From: a virus
IMG/VR virus record: IMGVR_UViG_3300025592_000044
Coordinates: 1-32,194 of that record
Direction: 5' to 3' (one strand)
Length of the DNA stretch: 32,194 nucleotides
Positions 11,661 through 29,648 of this stretch are shown one piece after another. Both the position numbers and the translations under genes were made by a program. The stretch's first letter is position 1, and the number at the start of each line of letters is the position of its first letter. Under the pieces are notes generated by a model, which was not told the DNA's origin, did not search any database, and saw only the letters and a program-made list of their open reading frames with translations.

Positions 11661-11689
11661 AGTATATTGTTAAGCGAGCCGACTGTCAA
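11661..11689 (-). promoter_or_regulatory. Near-consensus sigma-70 promoter for the metallopeptidase gene
   Basis: Minus strand TTGACA (11684-11689) and TATACT (11661-11666) are separated by exactly 17 bp. The -35 overlaps the last codons of the XhlA-like gene. Predicted RNA start is near 11654. Confidence 0.8.
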
Positions 11690-11961
11690 GGAAAGTTTTT
11701 AATTATAAAAGCACTGAGAAGACCGATCACAGAGGAAAACAGGGTCCATATTAATTTGGAGGAAGTAGATCTCCAGGCCTCAAGTTGGCGAAGGCGGGCA
11801 TAAAGGCCGTTGTCTGGGTTGTAAACAGCCTCCTTAATCTTTGCTATGTCAGCAGCCATCAAGTCTTGCTTTTCTTTGAAAAGTTCGAGACTATTGCAGA
11901 TCTTATCCATTTTAACATCTAACTTAAGCAACTGATCTATACCGCTATGCTCTACAGACAT
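11686..11961 (-). CDS. XhlA-like coiled-coil membrane protein
   Basis: A 91-residue protein with an amphipathic coiled coil (about residues 8-65, including LARLRQLEAWRS-type spacing) and a C-terminal transmembrane helix, LIWTLFSSVIGLLSAFII. This layout matches the haemolysin XhlA family found in phages, often near holins. It may assist lysis or anchor a complex to the membrane. GGAGGGAG precedes the ATG. It follows groEL by 40 nt. Confidence 0.65.
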   Translation of the reverse strand: MSVEHSGIDQLLKLDVKMDKICNSLELFKEKQDLMAADIAKIKEAVYNPDNGLYARLRQLEAWRSTSSKLIWTLFSSVIGLLSAFIIKNFP

Positions 11962-12001: not shown

Positions 12002-13573
12002 TTAAGTCTCTAAGACGGCGAAGTTTGTTGTGATCAAGACTCCCGCTACTGACGCAGCGTTCTGTAATGCACATCTGGTCACCTTGGCGGGGTCAATAAT
12101 TCCCGCCTCGAAAAAATCAACCAACTCTCCAGTCGCAAAGTTCATACCAATTTTGGGATCGTTTATGCTTTCTAATCTCTCCAAAACCATAATTGGATCA
12201 AGTCCAGAGTTTTCGGACATCTTTACAATCGGAGCTAAGATTGCACTCTTGACTATGCCAACACCCATCTTTTGTTCTTCGTTGTCGGTCTCAACTTCTA
12301 ACTCTCTGGCAATCGAAAATAATGTTATGCCCCCACCTGGGACTACCCCTTCAAGCTGGGCAGACCGAACTGCTTCTAGGGCATCCTCGATACGGTGTTT
12401 CTTCTCAATCATTTCGACTTCAGTGTGGGCACCTACATTGATTACAGCGATGCCTGATGCTAGGCGGGTTATTCTCTCTTGGATGCGCTGACACTCATCG
12501 ATCGATTCTTCTTGCTTGATATCTTCTTTCAAATTCTCAATCCGCTCGTCCACTTTGCTAGCGGTGCCGTGACCGCCAACGATTGTGGTGTACCCAAGGC
12601 CAATCTCAATGGAGTGGGCGCTGCCGAAGTCAACAAGAGAAGGCGACGAAAGATCGTCACCCTCGGATTTTCTGAAATATTTCGCACCTGTCGCGAGAGA
12701 TAGGTCGCTCATAATATTTCGCCTAGTCTCCCCGTACCTAGGTGCCTTGATCGCAGCCACTTTCATAGAACCGCGAATCGTGTTCATTATCAAAGCGGCG
12801 AGGGCTTGTCCTTCAATTTCGTCCGCGACAATAATGAATGGCCTGCCTTCTCTAGCTGCGGTCTCAAGTGATGGTAAGATTTGCTCTACTCGCTCAAGTT
12901 TAGAATCCGTTATCAAAAAAACCGGGTCTTCATAGCTTGCAACCTTCCTTCTTTCGTCTGTCACAAAAGCGCCGGCGGCATAGCCAGAATCGAATCTAAA
13001 ACCCTCAACAAGGTCCAGGGTCGTGTCAACAGACTTAGCCTCCTTGATCGTGATCGAACCGTTCTTTCCAACCTTGTCCACAGCCTCCGAGATCAACTCC
13101 CCGATAGTACTGTCATTGTTTGCTGAAAGGGACGCAATGTGAGCAATGTCAGCTTTACTGCTGATTGGTCTAGAGAGGTCCGCAAGTTTACCCACCACGG
13201 CTGCGACAGCTTTATCGATACCTCTTTTAAGCTCTGTGGCGTTAACCCTGTGGTCAAGCGCCTCGTCTGCAGAAAGAAATATCGCGCCAGCCAGTATGGT
13301 TGATGTGGTTGTGCCGTCCCCAGCCTCAATGTTGGTCCTTGCTGATGCCTCTTTTACGATCTGCGCAGCGACATCCATTACTGGGTCTTCCAAGTCCACG
13401 AACCTAGCGACGGTCACGCCGTCCTTGGTAATGAATGGCTTTTTACCCTTCTCCCTTATAATTACATTTCTACCCTTCGGGCCCAGGGTAGAACCGACGT
13501 TCTCTGATAGAATCTTGATGCCCTCTGATAATTTAGATCTTAACTCGCCTTCTGAACAGAAGTGTTTAGACAT
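12002..13573 (-). CDS. groEL: GroEL-type chaperonin (Cpn60)
   Basis: A complete 523-residue chaperonin that folds proteins in an ATP-driven double-ring cavity. Seen: TLGPKGRN (29-36), DGVTVA (51-56), GDGTTT (85-90), APRYGETRR (277-285), GAHTEVEMIEKKHRIEDALE (381-400) and GGG (413-415). D51, D86, D397 and D494 align with the catalytic and nucleotide-binding Asp residues of E. coli GroEL (D52, D87, D398, D495). The C-terminal GGM-repeat tail of bacterial GroEL is absent. It is far diverged from host-type GroEL and has no adjacent groES; a GroES-like gene lies 16 kb away. A TTGACA promoter precedes it. Phage GroELs are known from only a limited set of phages. Confidence 0.97.
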   Translation of the reverse strand: MSKHFCSEGELRSKLSEGIKILSENVGSTLGPKGRNVIIREKGKKPFITKDGVTVARFVDLEDPVMDVAAQIVKEASARTNIEAGDGTTTSTILAGAIFLSADEALDHRVNATELKRGIDKAVAAVVGKLADLSRPISSKADIAHIASLSANNDSTIGELISEAVDKVGKNGSITIKEAKSVDTTLDLVEGFRFDSGYAAGAFVTDERRKVASYEDPVFLITDSKLERVEQILPSLETAAREGRPFIIVADEIEGQALAALIMNTIRGSMKVAAIKAPRYGETRRNIMSDLSLATGAKYFRKSEGDDLSSPSLVDFGSAHSIEIGLGYTTIVGGHGTASKVDERIENLKEDIKQEESIDECQRIQERITRLASGIAVINVGAHTEVEMIEKKHRIEDALEAVRSAQLEGVVPGGGITLFSIARELEVETDNEEQKMGVGIVKSAILAPIVKMSENSGLDPIMVLERLESINDPKIGMNFATGELVDFFEAGIIDPAKVTRCALQNAASVAGVLITTNFAVLET

Positions 13574-13602
13574 GAATACCTCGCTTTCTTTTATTCTACT
13601 AT

Positions 13603-13630
13603 AATATAATGTATCTTATCTTATTGTCAA
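13603..13630 (-). promoter_or_regulatory. Sigma-70-type promoter for groEL
   Basis: Minus strand TTGACA (13625-13630) is followed by TATATT (13603-13608, spacing 16) or TATTAT (13601-13606, spacing 18). The RNA would start near 13596, leaving a short leader with a GAGGT site before ATG 13573. No CIRCE-type inverted repeat or heat-shock sigma-32 site is visible. Confidence 0.75.
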
Positions 13631-14586: not shown

Positions 14587-15252
14587 TCAAATAATCTCAT
14601 CTGCAATGCCAAATTCAACTGCCTGTTCTGCTGATAAGTAAACATCCACCTGCCGACGAATCATCTTTTTTAATCTTTTAACAGTCAAGTTTGTTTCTGC
14701 GGCAAGGCAAGAGATATACTTCTCTTGAATCCACTTAATCTCTTCGATCTCGTTCTCCATCGTAGTCAGGGTGCCGCCAAAGCCGCCAGCTACGCCGTGG
14801 ATCATGACCCTGCAGTTTGCGCCAATCTTTCGCTTACCCTTGGTTCCTGCGGCCAGTAAGAGCACACCTGCGGACATTACCTTGCCCATACCAATCGTGT
14901 TGATGTCGCAAACCTCTTTAGTCATTCTCATCGTATCGTAAACCGAAAACATATCCGTTGCCGAGCCGCCAAACGTAGAAATAACCAAAGAGACGGGCTT
15001 TGAGATTCCGATCACTTCAGAGTCTGGGTTGTCAGGGTCCTTAAGTTCGTACGTAACAGCAGTGTCCTTGAAGTAAAATAAAGCCGAGACAGCCTCCGCA
15101 CAAACCTTCTCAGTAATATCTGAATAAAGGTTGATCGTTCTAATCTCATCTGCTCTGTTGCCGGCGCCGTCTATGTTGTTGACAATGACAATTTGCTTAC
15201 TTAGATCTGTTTCTTTGTCTTTCTTTTTATTTTTTGCGAGTTTTTCTAGCAT
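14587..15252 (-). CDS. ClpP-like serine protease
   Basis: A 221-residue protein of the ClpP/crotonase fold. The Ser nucleophile is S127 in GKVMSAGVLLLAAG, the His is H152 in VMIHGVAGGFGGT, and the Asp is probably D203 in RRQVDVYLSAEQAVEFGIAD; the order and spacing fit ClpP. I chose ATG 15252, with AAGGAG 10 nt upstream; ATG 15273 lacks such a site. The N-terminal 20 residues are Lys-rich. Phage ClpP-like enzymes can either act with host ClpX/ClpA or process head proteins; its place beside a scaffold-like gene and proteins with cleavage-like N-termini favours the second, but does not prove it. Confidence 0.9.
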   Translation of the reverse strand: MLEKLAKNKKKDKETDLSKQIVIVNNIDGAGNRADEIRTINLYSDITEKVCAEAVSALFYFKDTAVTYELKDPDNPDSEVIGISKPVSLVISTFGGSATDMFSVYDTMRMTKEVCDINTIGMGKVMSAGVLLLAAGTKGKRKIGANCRVMIHGVAGGFGGTLTTMENEIEEIKWIQEKYISCLAAETNLTVKRLKKMIRRQVDVYLSAEQAVEFGIADEII

Positions 15253-15532
15253 TGAAAACTTTCTCCTTACCATTCTTTTTAATCTCTACCACTTTACAGT
15301 CCAAGCTTTTTGCAAACTTGTACCAGTCTTCTCTCTCCTTAAAAAGTCTGGAGAAGATTCTAATATAATCTTTTGTCCTGGGCGAGAAGCCCTCTCCTGA
15401 CGGCATCCAATGTGAAGCATCCTTGAAGATCTCATTGACCTCTTTCAAGGTTTTTGATCGCACCTGCACTTTATATGTGTGTTTCGGAGTCGCTTCATCG
15501 AATATTTCCCAAGCTACAACTTCTATAGACAT
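15227..15532 (-). CDS. Hypothetical protein
   Basis: A 101-residue alpha/beta protein starting MSIEVVAWEIFDEATPKHTY with an AGGATTAGGAA site. The N-terminal strands (VEVVAWEIF, YKVQVRSKTL) are followed by helices with SHWMPSGEGFSPRT in between and a very basic end (FNARKTRKK). No family recognised. It overlaps the ClpP-like gene start. Confidence 0.65.
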   Translation of the reverse strand: MSIEVVAWEIFDEATPKHTYKVQVRSKTLKEVNEIFKDASHWMPSGEGFSPRTKDYIRIFSRLFKEREDWYKFAKSLDCKVVEIKKNGKEKVFNARKTRKK

Positions 15533-16784: not shown

Positions 16785-17039
16785 TCAAAAAACTCCTGTT
16801 TTGTTGTCTCGTATCGTCTTAGATAGTTTTTTTAATGCTATCTTTTCTATCTGCCTGACTCTGACAAAGCTCAAACCAACTCGCTTTGCCGTCTCATGCA
16901 AAGTTAACCCCTTCTCGTTATTGTCGTCGATCGTGATCAAGCAGCAATTCAGATCGTCTTCATAGTCTATCCATTTTCTACACTCGCTGTTCTGGCAAGG
17001 CGTGTTTGTTTGTTTGCAGGATTCTGCACATTCTTTCAT
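16785..17039 (-). CDS. Sigma-70 region 4-like HTH protein with Cys-rich N-terminus
   Basis: An 84-residue protein. Residues 44-74 (LTLHETAKRVGLSFVRVRQI, then EKIALKKL) match the -35-binding helix-turn-helix of sigma region 4, including RVRQIE. The N-terminal half has Cys at CAESC, PCQNSEC and LNCC, which could bind zinc. There is no region 2, so it cannot act as a complete sigma factor; it may remodel host RNA polymerase or act as a small activator. Its ATG overlaps the upstream stop (ATGA). Confidence 0.82.
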   Translation of the reverse strand: MKECAESCKQTNTPCQNSECRKWIDYEDDLNCCLITIDDNNEKGLTLHETAKRVGLSFVRVRQIEKIALKKLSKTIRDNKTGVF

Positions 17040-20853: not shown

Positions 20854-23800
20854 CTATGCTAACATCTTGAAAGTGCCTGATATAGACCTGGTACTGAACC
20901 CCCACTGGAGACTCCAGTCAAGCTTGGCCATGTATGGGCGATTTAAGTAAACTTTATCTTTCTCTGGCTTGACTCCCCAGCACTTAATCGATCTCTGCTC
21001 GGAGTTGGAGTCAATGACCTTGACAATGTAGAAGTCTTTACCGTTTTTCGTCTTCTTCTTCGCAACCTCTCTGGGAATAAACCAAACGACTTGCAAACCC
21101 TCATCGAATTCAGAGATTGGAGGGATGTGCAGCTCATCCAATCTCCTCTGAACGTGTTCATCAACAACCAGATTCAGTGGGAAGACTCCCGTAAGATCAA
21201 CGAGATACTGAAGTTTTTCCTCTTCCGTGAACTCTCCCTCTGGGGCATATAACCTTATGTTGTCCTCCAAGTTTTTAAGCTTTCGAGGCCGGTCGCATGC
21301 GACGGCTGACCAGAAGTGCTTGAGGCCCGTGAATCTTTCGTCCATCAGGCAATTCAGGGTCTGACTCTTTATCAAGGCGTCCAAACTTTTCTTGTTGAGT
21401 TTCGAATAAGTGATGTTGTCGTTAAATATAAACTCCTCGATCGTGTCGAACGGCCTGTTGTCTAGTATTTGTCGAATCGCAGATATACCTAGACCCTTGA
21501 TAGACGAAAGCGGTTGGATCAATGTTTTTTTGTCTTCGCTTATCTCCCAAGTTATGCCAGATGTATTTATGTTCAAAGGTTCGATATTGTACCCATAGGA
21601 TTTCGCAACATTGATCGCTCGCTCTTTCCGTTTATCCGGCTCCTTATCTAAAAACGCGGCCATCCAGCACTCGGGGTAATAATTCAGTAACCAGGCGCAC
21701 TGGTATGAAAGAATACAGTAGGAAACAGCGTGAGACTTGTTGAAACCATATCCTGAAAAGTATTCAAACTTTTCCCAAAGCTCCTTGGCTTGGTGGCCCT
21801 TCATTCCCTTCTCGATACAACCCTCGCGAAACTTGACATAAATCTTTTCTTTTTCTTCATCCGCTGATGAGCCCAGCCCTGTCTTGGTCAGCAGTTTTCT
21901 CAGCTTGTTCCCCTCATCTAGCGTCACATTCTTGCCGAGCTTGTGAGCTAGCATAGCAATCTGCTCTTGAAAGATTAAAAAACCGTATGTTTCTTCGGTG
22001 ACTTCTCTGACTTGTTTGTTGAGGTAGTCCACGCTACTTGGATCTTGCTTTGCGCCGACATACATCTTATCAACGCCAGCCGACAATGGGCCAGGTCGAT
22101 AGATGGAGGTGATTGCAGCGAGGTCTGTGATATTATTGGGCAGTGCCTGCTTGCAAAAGGCTTGTGCTCCGGCTTCTGTAAATTGGAATATCCCCGCCCA
22201 CCTTCCTTCGTGAAACACGTTTTTCCACACTTGGTCATCATCTAGGTCGATCCTCTCGGGGTGTAACCTTTCGTCGTAGAATCTCTTGATATCGGTGAAG
22301 GACGGGTCATCCACACCTTCATACCTCACCAAAACGTGGCGTATTGCGTCCTCCATCATCCTCAAGGAAGCGAGTCCCAGGATATCAAACTTGATGAAAC
22401 CCATTGGTTCCAAGTGTCGCACGTTCATACCCTCAGACCAAGGCGTTTGGCGGACACCCCCTGAGTTGATAAGCGGCATCCACTGGTCTAGGTTCTCTCC
22501 CACAACAACACCACCAGCGTGGCGTGAAGCTGAGCGTGTCTGACCATAGAGAGCATTTACGTGCGTTTCAATGTGAGGATACTTCTTCAAAAAATCTTTT
22601 AATGTCTCGGAGTACATCATAAGCTCTTCGAAGGTGGGATTGTACACTCCAGCAGTGATACCGCGTGCTTTTTTGGCCAGCGGTGTTGCCTCGAATATCA
22701 TCTTGCTAGTGACGTTGTTCACTTCCGAGAAAGATATGTTATAAAACTTTGATATGTCCTTTACCAAAGATCTCAACTGTAACGTGTTCCAGTTTGTAAT
22801 GGGGACCACGGTGTTGTCTCCCCACTCGTCAATGAGTTCTTCCTTTAAAGTCATCGGGTCCGAAACATCGTAGTCAATGTCTGGGTAGCCGGACCCACCT
22901 TTTGTCAAAAAGCGCTCAAATTGGAGCCCGTACTTGATCGGATCTACTTGGGTGATGTCTAGGGCATAGGCGACCAGAGAGCCTGCGGCAGAGCCTCTGC
23001 CGGCCCCCACAAGCTGCTTTACGGTCGCTCTGTCGGCGATTGCTTTCATCGTCAGAAAATACTTACTAAATCCTCTAGACTCGATAATCTTGCACTCATA
23101 TTTCAGCCTTTCGATATAATCGGGATTGGAAACGAATCCACGCACTCGTGCGCCCTCGATGCAAAGTCTTGCGAGAGCTTGTCCTGGCGAGTAGCCGTCG
23201 GGAACAAACATATCAGGTAGACGAACCTCGTTATCAGGCAAAAAATCCTCAATGTCATTAAAAGCAATCCGGTGAGTACTCTTTATAGAATTAAGTACCA
23301 AATTGTCGTCGTATTGAAATCCACATTCTTTAGAGTATTTCTTATAACTCTCCCACATCTGGTCGCCATTTTTTGGATAAAGTTCATAACCAACCTCTTC
23401 AACTCCATCGGGCAGTTCATTAGACATCCATTCTGGGCGTCTGCCTAGGAAGCCTAGGCGCTTATAAAGTTCTCTGTCCTTCCATACGTCTGGCGAATAG
23501 TAGTGAGAGTCCGCCGTAGAAATCAGGTCAATGCCAAATTCGTGATGCATTTGTATGATGTAGGTATTCAGTTGATGCTGCTCTGGCACATTATTCCACT
23601 GCAGTTCTCCATACCATCTCTGTCCAAATATTGACTGCATCTTCTGGGTAGTCTCTCGAAAAGCATTGAGGACAGCATCTTCCCCCTTGTCTTTATTCTG
23701 CCAGAAATTACCTGCATAAACCCCGCCTAAACAGGCAGAGGCCGCGATGACGCCCTCATTGTGCCTCTTCAGCATCGCATAGTCAACTCTAGGGTAACGA

Positions 23801-24291
23801 TAAAAGTTATCACTAGTGTACGACTTTGAGATCATTTTGAAAATGTTCTTCAAACCGACCTGATTCTGAGCTAGTAGTATGAGATGACTTCTTCTATTTA
23901 GAGTTGACTTTACGAGCTTTTTAGATTCCTCATCTTCAACCGTAGCGCCGCTCTGGAGTTCCCTCTTCTTTGTAGATTTGTTCTTTGCTAAAGCGCGAAC
24001 CTTGTCGTATTCCTCTTTCCAATTGGCCACAGATGGAATGAAGTAGGCTTCACAGCCGAAGATAGGCTTGAAGTCCCTGCCCTCAGACTTCATCTTCTTT
24101 GCGTGTAAAACCTGGTATGCTAGTCCGTTAGCGTTTCCGTGATCCGTGAGGGCCAGGGCGTCCATACCGTTTTCGTATGCAAAGTCCATATGCTCGGAAG
24201 GGTATCCCAGAGCGTCAAAAAGCGAGCCGGCGACCGAATGTGCGTGCAGTCCAACGAACGGAATATCGGATTTATTCCTCTGTGAGTTCAT
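20854..24291 (-). CDS. dnaE: DNA polymerase III alpha subunit (DnaE type)
   Basis: A complete 1145-residue replicative polymerase. The N-terminal PHP domain has H16-x-H18, TDHG (D50, H51), E81, H136, C187 and D261-S-H263, so the metal site looks intact. The Pol3 core has GRGSAAGSLVAYALD (431-445) and the catalytic PDIDYD (470-475; D471, D473), with the third Asp in the KFDILG motif. Then comes the GYGFNKSHAVSY motif, a helix-hairpin-helix-like part and a C-terminal OB-fold (KTKNGKDFYIVKV). Its ATG has AGGA 8 nt upstream. Few phages encode DnaE; most use family A or B polymerases. Confidence 0.97.
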   Translation of the reverse strand: MNSQRNKSDIPFVGLHAHSVAGSLFDALGYPSEHMDFAYENGMDALALTDHGNANGLAYQVLHAKKMKSEGRDFKPIFGCEAYFIPSVANWKEEYDKVRALAKNKSTKKRELQSGATVEDEESKKLVKSTLNRRSHLILLAQNQVGLKNIFKMISKSYTSDNFYRYPRVDYAMLKRHNEGVIAASACLGGVYAGNFWQNKDKGEDAVLNAFRETTQKMQSIFGQRWYGELQWNNVPEQHQLNTYIIQMHHEFGIDLISTADSHYYSPDVWKDRELYKRLGFLGRRPEWMSNELPDGVEEVGYELYPKNGDQMWESYKKYSKECGFQYDDNLVLNSIKSTHRIAFNDIEDFLPDNEVRLPDMFVPDGYSPGQALARLCIEGARVRGFVSNPDYIERLKYECKIIESRGFSKYFLTMKAIADRATVKQLVGAGRGSAAGSLVAYALDITQVDPIKYGLQFERFLTKGGSGYPDIDYDVSDPMTLKEELIDEWGDNTVVPITNWNTLQLRSLVKDISKFYNISFSEVNNVTSKMIFEATPLAKKARGITAGVYNPTFEELMMYSETLKDFLKKYPHIETHVNALYGQTRSASRHAGGVVVGENLDQWMPLINSGGVRQTPWSEGMNVRHLEPMGFIKFDILGLASLRMMEDAIRHVLVRYEGVDDPSFTDIKRFYDERLHPERIDLDDDQVWKNVFHEGRWAGIFQFTEAGAQAFCKQALPNNITDLAAITSIYRPGPLSAGVDKMYVGAKQDPSSVDYLNKQVREVTEETYGFLIFQEQIAMLAHKLGKNVTLDEGNKLRKLLTKTGLGSSADEEKEKIYVKFREGCIEKGMKGHQAKELWEKFEYFSGYGFNKSHAVSYCILSYQCAWLLNYYPECWMAAFLDKEPDKRKERAINVAKSYGYNIEPLNINTSGITWEISEDKKTLIQPLSSIKGLGISAIRQILDNRPFDTIEEFIFNDNITYSKLNKKSLDALIKSQTLNCLMDERFTGLKHFWSAVACDRPRKLKNLEDNIRLYAPEGEFTEEEKLQYLVDLTGVFPLNLVVDEHVQRRLDELHIPPISEFDEGLQVVWFIPREVAKKKTKNGKDFYIVKVIDSNSEQRSIKCWGVKPEKDKVYLNRPYMAKLDWSLQWGFSTRSISGTFKMLA

Positions 24292-25385: not shown

Positions 25386-26142
25386 GCGCTTGCACCAAAA
25401 GAACATCAAGAGATGTCGTTGGAAATTCGACCAAAGAGGACGGTTCATACCTGTCGAGCCCAACCTTTATAACGTCCCTACTGGTGACGTTCAAGTCTAT
25501 CCTGTTTCTAAAGACTTTTCCCGTCTTTTTATCGATTCTATTTACAGTACCCATAATACCATTTTCTTCTAACGCTCTTCTGGTCTTAAATCTACACATA
25601 GTATCAGAAAATTCAAAATCCAACAACTGGCCTTCACTCAGGTATGAAACAACGACTACATCCTTGTGTCTCAAGTCACTATCTAATCTGCCAGACTCGT
25701 AGAGAACAATTCTGTTTACAAAATCGTCTTTAGATCTAATCTCATCGGTTTCAAACTTAACACATTTTTTTAAGTTTATCCAATCAACAACTTTGAGCTT
25801 TTCTTGGCCCTTTTCGATAACTTCGTTTTCAAGATCCAGGCAGTTGTTGTCAAATACATAACATTTTTTGAACAAGATTTTCGCACTGTGGTTTCCACCA
25901 TGGATCACGGTGATAGACTCACCCCTTACCCTCAAGGACTTGACTCTATCGGAGAACGGGATTTTCCCCAAGAGACCGAGTCTGAACATACGCTGGTTCC
26001 ACATCTCAAACCCTTCATCAAAGAAATATGGTGGAGACGAGCCATTATATATCAACGGACAGTCGTTGATCTGTGCGTATAATACCGATCTCAAGCAAGA
26101 TCCGACAACTATTTTATCGACAGACCAAGTTCTTGTAGTCAT
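25378..26142 (-). CDS. Unrecognised protein, partner of the nucleotidyltransferase-like gene
   Basis: A 254-residue protein from ATG 26142 with AGGAA 8 nt upstream (GTG 26160 is weaker). The N-terminus has IVVGSCLRSVLYAQINDCP and IYNGSSPPYFFDEGFE; the remainder is mixed alpha/beta with Cys and many basic residues. The GxC-x loop could be a nucleotide-binding turn, but no family is recognised. It ends inside the start of the nucleotidyltransferase-like gene and its start overlaps the end of the lipoprotein gene. Confidence 0.6.
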   Translation of the reverse strand: MTTRTWSVDKIVVGSCLRSVLYAQINDCPLIYNGSSPPYFFDEGFEMWNQRMFRLGLLGKIPFSDRVKSLRVRGESITVIHGGNHSAKILFKKCYVFDNNCLDLENEVIEKGQEKLKVVDWINLKKCVKFETDEIRSKDDFVNRIVLYESGRLDSDLRHKDVVVVSYLSEGQLLDFEFSDTMCRFKTRRALEENGIMGTVNRIDKKTGKVFRNRIDLNVTSRDVIKVGLDRYEPSSLVEFPTTSLDVLLVQARD

Positions 26143-28204
26143 AGTGTATGTTCCTAGCACTAGCGTGTTGAAATGCGCTTCTTGGCACTGAAGATGTTAC
26201 TTGGTCACCAGGGAGGCAAATCTCGTCTAGAATCGACATAAGATCATTGTACGTTTGGTCGGCATTGGTTGTCAGTGCAAACATTCCTCCGCCGGTCGGT
26301 TGTGTATACCTCGACCATCGGGTCTGGTAGTATGATCCTGTAAAGACATACAGTTTAGTATTTGGGGACGCGGATAAGGCCTCAATCAGCGGTTGTGGGT
26401 CTAGAGTTGGGTCAAGGAATGATTGGTCTTCTTCGTCTGTAAAAACAATTATTATTCTATCTGCGTCTGGTCTCCAGTTGATTCTGAAATCGTGAAGAGT
26501 AGGGATGGAGTCTATCTGGTGAAACCTATCCAACCACGATGCGGCTGCAAGGTCGTAAGGAAGATTCGTGGAGATTGTGCTTACAGACATATACAGAGCG
26601 TCCCTCAACATCTCACTTGTTGTCCCTGGTCCAAACGCTCCGGCAGAAGAGAACGCTGACATAAAGTCTGCAAAGCTTGCGATATCTGTTTCTCTTCTTA
26701 GCCACTCAGTTTGTTGGTGTGCGTGTAGACCTTCTACTGGAAAGATTCTTGGCCCAGTTATGAGACCCCATTTGAGTTTCTGTTCTGCGGAAAACTGACT
26801 GGCGAAGCGGTTCATTGCTGTTTGTGTCGCATTGATGTTGTATTCCATTGAGCCGGACCAGTCGAGAATGAAGAGAATGTCTGTATCTGGAATTGCTTCT
26901 CCGAAGTCCGTAGTTCCATCGCAGTCGTTGTCAGCGCCATCGCATATCTCTCTGCTCGGAACAACCTCTCCAGCGCAGAAATCGATAAGCAAGTCTCCGT
27001 TCGATAGTTCACCAAACCACTGTCCTTCTAGGCAAAGCATCTCGCCAAGTGAACATACGCCGATGCCACCAGTTCCCTCTGGGCCAGAATAACATGACTT
27101 GACAAGCTCTTCGTCAACTAGGTCGTCGCAGTCTTCATCAAAGTTATTGCAAACTTCTGGGTTGACTGGGATTCCCAGGAGCGCGTTGCACCCTTCTGGA
27201 TCATCAGCAGGGACTAGTTCCGGAGGTAACCAAGCGCAGAGTGCAAGGCAATCTGAATACTTTGTAACCGAGCAGTCGTCGTTATCACACTCGCAACTCT
27301 TGAATCCCATACCACAAGACAGCGGGGGTTCCATACAAGGCAATAGAGCACCAATGATTTCTGGCGGGCACTCACATTGAAGACCCTCATCGACGAGGGC
27401 ATCGCAGTCGTTGTCTTGGCCGTCGCAGGCCTCTACCGATGGTTGCCTTGCGGTACAACCTATCCAGCGGCCATCTACACAAACCTCGATACCTCTTTCG
27501 CAAGTGGTGACGCACTCTTGGATGAGTTCTTCGTCGATGTCTCCGTCGCAGTCGTTGTCTAGACCGTCGCAAGTGTCTTGAGGAAGTGGTCCGCAAAGAC
27601 CGCATTCATTTAATTGGTTTTCATCTACCTCGTCATCGCAATCATTGTCGAGACCGTCGCAGATCTCATCTGAAACAATGCAAGTGATGCACTCTCCGTA
27701 GTAGAGTCTACCTTTATCACACTTGACCTCTTGTGTCCCTGGGTCTCCATTGACATCGCAGTCATAGGTCACTGTAAAGTCTTCGTTCGCTCCTGGTGGG
27801 CAATCAAAGGCATGGTTGCAATCGCTTTCATAGATGATTTCTGCTGGTAGGCAAGTGCTGTCAAAGTTCCTGTCGCAAGGAACATGGTCTTCTCCACAAA
27901 TGTCCAAGATAGCATCTTTCGCTAGGATTTCAGTCCCAACTGGTGGGCAGTACCAAATTTGTTGCTGGCAGCATCTCGGAAAGCATGTGCAATAATCAGC
28001 GTCAATGTTCTGGACGTCAGCGCAAGGGTCGACATAAGCGTCAACCGTGATATCTGGGATTTCTATGATTCTTGTGTCTGGAGACAAAAGGTCTACACTT
28101 ATGCCTACCTGGAGGTCTTTTGTCTCACCTTGTTGCGAGACAGTATCAGCGCACGATGCGAGCGCTAACAAGACGCCGATAAAACTTATTGATTTTCTTA
28201 ACAT
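26114..28204 (-). CDS. MopE-repeat and von Willebrand A domain lipoprotein
   Basis: A 696-residue exported protein. A lipoprotein signal ends in LLALASC with lipidated C18. Five MopE-type metal-binding repeats, C-D-G-x-D-N-D-C-D-x3-D-E, occur at 182-195, 212-225, 260-273, 352-365 (CNNFDEDCDDLVDE) and 421-434; many further Cys suggest disulfides. A VWA domain follows (about 440-680) with MIDAS residues DWSGS (448-452), T528 and FTDEED (D590). Such proteins are typical of Myxococcota/Bdellovibrionota-type bacteria, where the repeats bind calcium or copper and VWA binds other proteins. AAAAGG precedes the ATG. It would sit on the host surface. Its presence in a phage is unusual. Confidence 0.88.
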   Translation of the reverse strand: MLRKSISFIGVLLALASCADTVSQQGETKDLQVGISVDLLSPDTRIIEIPDITVDAYVDPCADVQNIDADYCTCFPRCCQQQIWYCPPVGTEILAKDAILDICGEDHVPCDRNFDSTCLPAEIIYESDCNHAFDCPPGANEDFTVTYDCDVNGDPGTQEVKCDKGRLYYGECITCIVSDEICDGLDNDCDDEVDENQLNECGLCGPLPQDTCDGLDNDCDGDIDEELIQECVTTCERGIEVCVDGRWIGCTARQPSVEACDGQDNDCDALVDEGLQCECPPEIIGALLPCMEPPLSCGMGFKSCECDNDDCSVTKYSDCLALCAWLPPELVPADDPEGCNALLGIPVNPEVCNNFDEDCDDLVDEELVKSCYSGPEGTGGIGVCSLGEMLCLEGQWFGELSNGDLLIDFCAGEVVPSREICDGADNDCDGTTDFGEAIPDTDILFILDWSGSMEYNINATQTAMNRFASQFSAEQKLKWGLITGPRIFPVEGLHAHQQTEWLRRETDIASFADFMSAFSSAGAFGPGTTSEMLRDALYMSVSTISTNLPYDLAAASWLDRFHQIDSIPTLHDFRINWRPDADRIIIVFTDEEDQSFLDPTLDPQPLIEALSASPNTKLYVFTGSYYQTRWSRYTQPTGGGMFALTTNADQTYNDLMSILDEICLPGDQVTSSVPRSAFQHASARNIHYDYKNLVCR

Positions 28205-28631: not shown

Positions 28632-29335
28632 TACTTCTCCATTTTGTTTTTGATGAAAGAATGGACGGAATGTGGAAACAAATCCTCTACAATTTCTAGA
28701 CAAGCTTCAGCGACCTGCTGAATCTCCCACTGTGCTCCTGTGTGTGAACGCAAGGCTACGAACTTCAAGAGGTTATGGAGGTTGACTGTCCCATAATACT
28801 GAGTGTATAAATTCTGTGGCAACACCCCCCTTGCTTGTTCTCTGCATATTCCCGATTCAAGCATCTTGTCAAAGAGTTTTATACACTCTTGATGATGTGC
28901 CTTGACTAGGTCTGAAGCATTGGCCGAGACAGGAAAGCCAGCCCTGTTATATTCTACAATTGGGTTTACCAAATCGTCTGTACTGGCCTGCCTGTTGCTC
29001 TCGTGTTGCCGTCTGAACTCTTTAGGTTCATAAAAATTGATATTTACGGAAGTGTATCTCCTAGAAATCTCGTTATAGGCCCAAGTACGGTGTCGATGGT
29101 GCTGGCTACGTATGAAGAGAGGCACTGTAAACCGAAATGTGACAGCACAATGCTCGAAAGGAGAGCTATGATTGTGGTCCATAAGGTAGTTGATGAGCTT
29201 GATATCTTTCTCATCTACTTCTTTTTTTTCTGAGCCAAAAGACACCCTTGCCGCATTAACAACCGAGAGATCTGAACCCATATGTGAAACGTACTCAACC
29301 GCACCTATGTCATCACCGAAGATTTCAATTCTCAT
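28631..29335 (-). CDS. thyX: Flavin-dependent thymidylate synthase
   Basis: Makes dTMP from dUMP using methylene-tetrahydrofolate and FAD/NADPH. The signature RHRTWAYNEISRRY (RHRxxxxNExSxRY) is intact, with HNHSSPFEH upstream and RSHTGAQWEIQ downstream. At 234 residues it is normal length. AGGGG lies 5 nt before ATG. It works with the dUTPase of this window. Its start lies inside the end of the GroES-like gene. Confidence 0.96.
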   Translation of the reverse strand: MRIEIFGDDIGAVEYVSHMGSDLSVVNAARVSFGSEKKEVDEKDIKLINYLMDHNHSSPFEHCAVTFRFTVPLFIRSQHHRHRTWAYNEISRRYTSVNINFYEPKEFRRQHESNRQASTDDLVNPIVEYNRAGFPVSANASDLVKAHHQECIKLFDKMLESGICREQARGVLPQNLYTQYYGTVNLHNLLKFVALRSHTGAQWEIQQVAEACLEIVEDLFPHSVHSFIKNKMEK

Positions 29336-29648
29336 CTAAGCCCCTGTAAATCCCAACAACGTGATTTTCCAAAACAATATACGTCCTTCTATCGCCGATC
29401 TTTATTTCTTGGACCATAGACCCGTCGACAACTATTTTCTTTTGCCTCACTGTTCCGTGCCTGAGCCCCTCGAATTGCTTCGAGCAATCCTCGGACACGT
29501 CAATGACTGTCGCTTCGATGTATCTGCCTTCCTCTGGCCTGTAATCATCCGGTAAGAGTACCCCGGATTCCGTCTCACGTTCCGTAAAGTGCGGCACAAT
29601 AGTAAGATGGCGATTAGTTGGTTTCAGTCGGGGAGGCAAACTACTCAT
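29325..29648 (-). CDS. GroES-like co-chaperonin
   Basis: A 107-residue protein whose order of strands follows Cpn10. LKPTNRHLTIVPHF is the first strand pair, then the mobile-loop region TERETESGVLLPDDY (22-36) with a hydrophobic VLL tripeptide like the GroEL-binding IVL of GroES, then EATVIDVSEDC, and a late strand pair KIGDRRTYIVLENHVVGIYR. A tryptophan-free, glycine-poor middle makes it diverged. I chose ATG 29648 with GGGGG upstream. It is the probable lid for the phage GroEL 16 kb away. Alternatives: unrelated small barrel; the identification is by pattern. Confidence 0.65.
   Translation of the reverse strand: MSSLPPRLKPTNRHLTIVPHFTERETESGVLLPDDYRPEEGRYIEATVIDVSEDCSKQFEGLRHGTVRQKKIVVDGSMVQEIKIGDRRTYIVLENHVVGIYRGLDEN

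Follow-up and report, generated by a model that had tools for sequence, protein, structure and literature searches.

The groEL locus and its neighborhood

The window, by which we mean the whole 32,194-nucleotide stretch of DNA analyzed here, is a 32-kb IMG/VR virus record (IMGVR_UViG_3300025592_000044) that overlaps the 64-kb contig L020, which comes from the same phage population, at 99.7-99.9%. The phage is large and has never been cultured. The minus strand carries groEL and essentially every other gene of the window, and the features on which the analysis centers are the following:

11686-11961, minus strand: 91-aa protein whose C-terminal segment is hydrophobic and membrane-like, encoded immediately downstream of groEL
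12002-13573, minus strand: groEL, a tail-less group I chaperonin of 523 aa and 56.0 kDa, assigned by Pfam, PHROG and alignment
13601-13630, minus strand: sigma-70-type promoter-like site, TTGACA ... TATATT/TATTAT, about 27-30 nt upstream of the groEL ATG
14587-15273, minus strand: ClpP-like serine protease, candidate head-maturation protease, two genes upstream of groEL
29325-29648, minus strand: groES-like co-chaperonin of 107 aa (ATG at 29648), 15.8 kb upstream of groEL
29541-29588, minus strand: predicted GroES mobile loop with the tripeptide V30-L31-L32, placed by alignment with E. coli GroES (I25-V26-L27)

An earlier sequence-only reading of this DNA had described the ORF at 12002-13573 as a full chaperonin of 523 residues, diverged from bacterial GroEL, with all the nucleotide-site Asp residues intact and without the Gly/Met tail, and each of these points was confirmed. 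The protein has the full-length Cpn60 domain architecture and fold, as it matches Pfam Cpn60_TCP1 (PF00118) over residues 22-517 (E=2.7e-68) and phrog_5725, 'chaperonin groEL' (E=3.4e-140), and it shows about 43% identity with the solved bacterial GroELs. Its residues D51, D86, D397 and D494 align with E. coli D52, D87, D398 and D495, the catalytic and nucleotide-site aspartates, which are present in all 75 distinct members of the phage family to which it belongs. The protein terminates at a point equivalent to about residue 525 of E. coli GroEL and the GGM tail is therefore absent, as it is from the 75 family members without exception. The apical groove is still hydrophobic: F204, L237, L259 and N265 (E. 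coli numbering) are found in 75/75 members, V263 is replaced by I and V264 by M in 74 of them, and in most of the family both S201 and Y203 have become A.

The proposal that groEL has a TTGACA promoter of its own was also sustained. The promoter-like site (13630-13601, minus strand) matches the consensus at 11 of 12 positions and can be read with two spacings, TTGACA-16-TATATT or TTGACA-18-TATTAT. Since the window has more exact sites of the TTGACA type than expected (8 versus 1.15), this site follows the usual promoter style of the phage. A search for a CIRCE element that might place groEL under heat-shock control found none, in agreement with the earlier reading.

The order of genes around groEL is conserved among the relatives: ClpP-like protease, groEL, 91-aa hydrophobic-tailed protein, dUTPase, IMPDH-like protein and DnaE. 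The protease gene, which adjoins groEL in 25 loci, matches Pfam CLP_protease (2.9e-33) and has phrog_94, head maturation protease, as its best PHROG match (5.3e-23); its motifs look like an intact Ser-His-Asp triad. The 91-aa protein gave no family match in Pfam/PHROG-type profile searches, and it is a neighbor of groEL in almost every relative, with tblastn matches beside the gene in 23 loci. An FKBP-type peptidyl-prolyl isomerase is encoded at 1332-1769 on the minus strand (Pfam FKBP_C, 5.8e-25), so that the phage has GroEL, GroES, a PPIase and a ClpP-like protease. Two other genes of the minus strand deserve mention. The first, at 16785-17039, encodes an 84-aa protein resembling region 4 of RNA polymerase sigma factors (phrog_351, 3.7e-5) that is conserved in 22 loci and could be a transcription switch of the phage. 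The second, at 20854-24291, encodes a phage DnaE-type DNA polymerase III alpha, which shows 70-83% identity across the uncultured phage family and 27-30% to cultured phages.

Loss of the T-state salt bridges

In its resting T state GroEL is locked by two salt bridges, R197-E386 and D83-K327. We compared the corresponding residues (E. coli numbering) in 44 bacterial GroELs and in the 75 distinct members of the phage family. Position 197 is K or R in all 44 bacterial proteins, whereas it is S, A or G in all 75 phage proteins. Similarly, position 83 is D or E in 44/44 bacteria, and A, S, V, T, N, L or I in most of the phage members, with E in three. The window GroEL has S196 and I82 at these sites and L at 327, and thus lacks both bridges. 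The same two bridges are absent from the chaperonin of phage EL (PMC7185714). The GroELs of Vibrio Va1-type phages keep R197 and D83; the loss thus belongs to the window's family and, separately, to EL.

With the T-state locks gone, the ring should favor a relaxed, GroES-ready state. The engineered E. coli double mutant D83A/R197A is reported to have its adjacent apical domains detached from each other (PMC10723157). An AlphaFold model of the window GroEL, obtained without templates (pLDDT 86.9), was nearest to GroEL-ATP (4aaq, TM 0.93) and to the D83A/R197A mutant (4ki8, TM 0.92), with values of about 0.83 for apo GroEL. This relaxed-like state of the model is no more than suggestive, as the run included no control protein and the R-like state may be a bias.

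The ring-ring contact face

The contact residues of the E. coli-type double ring, as taken from the literature, are K105, A109, R452, E461 and V464, with R452 facing E461. At these sites the window GroEL has E104, H108, V450, D459 and M462, so that nothing but the acid at 461 survives. Most sister lineages keep positions 105 and 452 basic and positions 434 and 463 acidic. In the window's group the basic residue at 105 is lost in all 12 sequences, and positions 109, 452, 461, 463 and 464 vary. This group was defined as the 33-tip clade that holds the window (support 99.4/100) minus a nested 21-tip clade (95.5/99), in a tree built without the contact columns; its 12 sequences form an unresolved grade.

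The mean class loss at the five contact residues was 0.684 in the window group and 0.044 (sd 0.097) at matched equatorial sites, and none of 20,000 random draws of conservation-matched equatorial sites was as extreme, in a contrast between the window group and the rest that was chosen after the residues had been inspected. Over seven contact positions, counting S463 and E434, which we take to be part of the contact, the mean net charge is -2.83 per subunit in the window group versus 0.02 in the rest. Contact retention is 0.25 in the window's clade and at least 0.76 in the other clades of similar size. These values make plausible the earlier suggestion that the assembly of this phage GroEL may be unusual. 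Since the ring-ring contacts are lost or changed in charge, one would expect single or loosely paired rings without negative cooperativity, the property that the K105A substitution alone abolishes in E. coli GroEL (PMC5941174).

Some elements that might still join two rings are left near the lost contacts. The window GroEL has D459 as the acid at 461, K451 beside the lost R452, and E104 near H108; the last two could make a contact like that of E105 and K109, the left-site charge pattern of mitochondrial Hsp60 (mHsp60), which the phage pattern resembles (PMC7174398). Taking these together, a weak and dynamic double ring would be just as likely as a strict single ring.

An ordinary double-ring GroEL/GroES system that happens to be carried by a phage, and that works like that of E. 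coli, would also account for part of these observations, the residue changes being drift or compensated contacts. The 43% identity extends over the full length, the nucleotide site and the groove are intact, most sister lineages keep K/R105 together with E/D434 and R/K452 together with a shifted acid at 463, and the window GroEL itself retains D459, with H108 and K451 close by. Such a system has, however, to accommodate contact sites that in the window lineage changed far beyond the matched sites (0/20,000 draws), besides T-state salt bridges that are both lost family-wide. We regard it as unlikely, if still deserving attention, and prefer rings that are single or loosely paired.

A distant groES that always accompanies groEL

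The absence of a groES gene that had been noted for this chaperonin is true of its immediate surroundings, as none adjoins groEL, but not of the genome, because one lies 15.8 kb upstream, at 29325-29648. That this GroES-like gene is real, as the sequence-only reading had supposed, is indicated by its match to phrog_3188 GroES (E=2.8e-7) and by its AlphaFold model (pLDDT 81), which matched the Cpn10 beta-barrel fold, with T4 gp31 among the matches; the 35 best Foldseek matches were all Cpn10s or entries containing Cpn10 (best E 3.7e-5, TM 0.60). The protein scored 20.4 bits against Pfam Cpn10 (E 5.4e-4), for which the cut-off is 21.1 bits, and a profile of its phage homologues matched chloroplast CPN11 in the PDB (3.4e-4). 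It shows 18% identity with E. coli GroES and had no match in 50,697 phage records. The predicted mobile loop coincides with a low-pLDDT stretch of the model and carries a hydrophobic VLL where E. coli GroES has IVL. We conclude that this is a divergent but genuine GroES.

A family profile found a GroES homologue in 20/20 related viral records (E 1e-18 to 1e-46), including three of the six that the PHROG GroES model had missed out of 19. In all 20, groES is on the same strand as groEL and 12.3-19.4 kb upstream of it; in two of them its frame contains one stop codon. The two genes are thus split in the genome, in separate transcription units, yet always together. A chaperonin that does without GroES, which the earlier reading implied, is not supported by these records, and a lone GroEL was accordingly discarded. 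Phages with GroES only, with both proteins and with GroEL only were already recognized (PMC7185714).

The distance of 12-19 kb between the two genes, in different operons, could also mean that their products are not partners: the phage GroES would act as a gp31 analogue on the host GroEL, which is exactly the arrangement that T4-like phages use, and the phage GroEL would employ the host GroES or act alone. We hold this to be improbable because the two genes co-occur invariably in the 20 records, and a phage that has both would hardly be expected to maintain each for a separate partner. The preferred reading remains that the phage GroEL and the phage GroES work together.

Not far from groES, at 26114-28204 on the minus strand, the window encodes a 696-aa predicted lipoprotein with a VWA domain and MopE-type metal-binding repeats that include five CDG..D.DCD motifs. 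It had no match in 50,697 phage records, and weak homologues were found at the same place, near groES and thyX, in related phages. MopE-type repeats are reminiscent of Myxococcota-like bacteria, which we take as a possible host lead.

Relatives and origin of the phage chaperonin

The statement that phage GroELs are few has to be abandoned: 289 phage records match GroEL, and scans of viral contigs gave 31 GroEL loci first and then at least 409 IMG/VR relatives, on contigs of up to 203 kb. A cultured relative was sought in 50,697 phage records, where no GroEL was closer than about 41%. Each of the ten relatives longer than 140 kb that were tested had a terminase gene and a capsid gene of the T4 gp23 type, in agreement with a phage-encoded GroEL, and the capsid protein measures 61-64 kDa in the four relatives in which its size was determined.

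A phylogeny against phage and host chaperonins had been proposed as a check on the origin of the gene. In a maximum-likelihood tree of 79 GroELs, with bacterial samples from Bacteroidota, Verrucomicrobiota, Bacillota, Actinomycetota and Patescibacteria, the window GroEL fell in an all-phage clade of 21 rows (support 100/100, stem 1.14) nested in none of the sampled bacterial groups, which argues against a recent acquisition from a host. The EL-like, PBS1/AR9-like and Mx1 chaperonins formed very long, remote branches. Kinship with the EL/OBP/AR9 proteins, with which the sequence-only reading had proposed to compare the chaperonin, was consequently rejected: the window GroEL neither clusters with the EL/AR9 type nor shares its lack of a co-chaperonin.

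In spite of this distance, a working mode like that of EL, OBP and AR9, namely an open chaperonin that prevents aggregation without a co-chaperonin and without encapsulation, has to be weighed, as the phage chaperonins characterized so far are EL-type proteins, and the window GroEL resembles EL in the absence of both the D83-K327 and R197-E386 bridges (PMC7185714) and also lacks the GGM tail. It is nevertheless very improbable given the identity of only about 25% to EL/PBS1-type proteins on very remote branches, the conservation of the GroES/substrate groove throughout the window's family and the groES gene of the 20 related records probed. A recent host acquisition, or a fragment of bacterial chromosome, is practically discounted in spite of three relatives that sit in MAGs (L046, L047 and L067), since the all-phage clade is long-stemmed and outside every sampled bacterial group, the relatives have capsid and terminase genes, two of the three are contigs of 8.5 and 27 kb, and the WOR-3 'chromosome' match (L067; CP070664.1, 201218-213536) corresponds to a scaffold of 12.3 kb that is flanked on both sides by a 100-N gap and hence is misbinned phage DNA.

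For the same reason, a prophage in WOR-3 was dropped as a host lead. The presence of a phage scaffold within a deposited WOR-3 MAG chromosome is a binning error that might lead to a wrong host being assigned.

A proposed GroES-capped, loosely paired chaperonin

We think it fairly probable that the phage GroEL is a GroES-capped chaperonin that works like mitochondrial Hsp60/Hsp10, as single or loosely paired rings without negative cooperativity, and folds phage proteins. The chaperonin, of a phage lineage of group I, would partner the GroES encoded 15.8 kb upstream by the phage itself. ATP-driven, GroES-capped encapsulation would be retained, as suggested by the nucleotide site, the apical groove and a GroES with a hydrophobic mobile-loop tripeptide. 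The loss of R197-E386 and D83-K327 in the whole family may bias the ring to the relaxed state that is ready for GroES, and the lost or charge-changed contacts of the window lineage may leave its rings single or loosely paired and negative cooperativity lost. The missing tails would enlarge and unblock the cavity floor. As deletion of the last 13 residues left E. coli GroEL unable to substitute for the wild type (PMC11978752), the tail-less phage protein must compensate for this lack.

The likely job of the pair would be to fold large phage proteins during infection, and the prime candidate client is the gp23-type capsid protein. Many gp23-type phages do without a GroEL of their own, which makes the capsid protein no more than a plausible client. 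Folding of T4 gp23 needs GroEL and the phage-encoded lid gp31, whose proposed effect is a larger folding cage (PMC3012670). The phage pair may thus replace the T4 arrangement of host GroEL plus phage gp31. A fuller picture, in which this is a natural single-ring, GroES-capped phage chaperonin that kept encapsulation, lost its locks, acquired a net-acidic ring face, converged with Hsp60/Hsp10 and is dedicated to a gp23-type capsid, is conceivable and we advance it tentatively.

Comparison with known chaperonins

The window's pair is like E. coli GroEL/GroES in fold, nucleotide site, apical groove and, for GroEL, about 43% identity, and differs from E. coli GroEL in the absence of the GGM tail and the replacement of R197, D83, S201, Y203 and the ring-ring contact residues. 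A weak or remodeled ring contact, read from sequence in the case of the phage protein, and the use of a co-chaperonin are shared with mitochondrial Hsp60/Hsp10; mHsp60 works as both single and double rings, and variants of it confined to a single ring remain able to fold protein and to complement bacteria (PMC7174398). The phage chaperonin is, however, of independent origin. Hsp60 keeps a Gly/Met tail.

EL gp146, OBP gp246 and AR9 gp228 are likewise phage-encoded, but differ in their low identity (about 25%), their independence of a co-chaperonin and their remodeled apical groove. With T4 the window phage shares a co-chaperonin of Cpn10 fold (gp31 in T4) and a gp23-type capsid gene, whereas T4 relies on host GroEL and the window phage brings its own. 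Group I chaperonins of the virioplankton, some with GroES, are already known (Marine et al. 2017 ISME J, as cited in PMC7185714 and PMC8390657); according to these citing papers they too are divergent GroELs, encoded by large marine phages with dsDNA genomes, and the window's family probably belongs to or overlaps this set.

As far as the papers that cite that work tell, loss of the T-state bridges together with the ring contacts, or a split layout of groES and groEL, has not been reported. What may be new is that one natural chaperonin unites lost T-state locks and a remodeled ring face while its co-chaperonin is retained, and that this face varies among close relatives. Whether encapsulation needs two rings and negative cooperativity has been debated for long, mainly on the basis of the engineered GroEL mutants SR1, K105A and D83A/R197A and of mitochondrial Hsp60. 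The phage family seems to supply a natural series of such mutants, with the T-state bridges lost in all and the ring contacts variable, and as GroES is encoded in all the related records probed, a direct comparison is possible within one family. It would also include phages with gp23-type capsids that supply the complete folding chamber and not just a lid like gp31.
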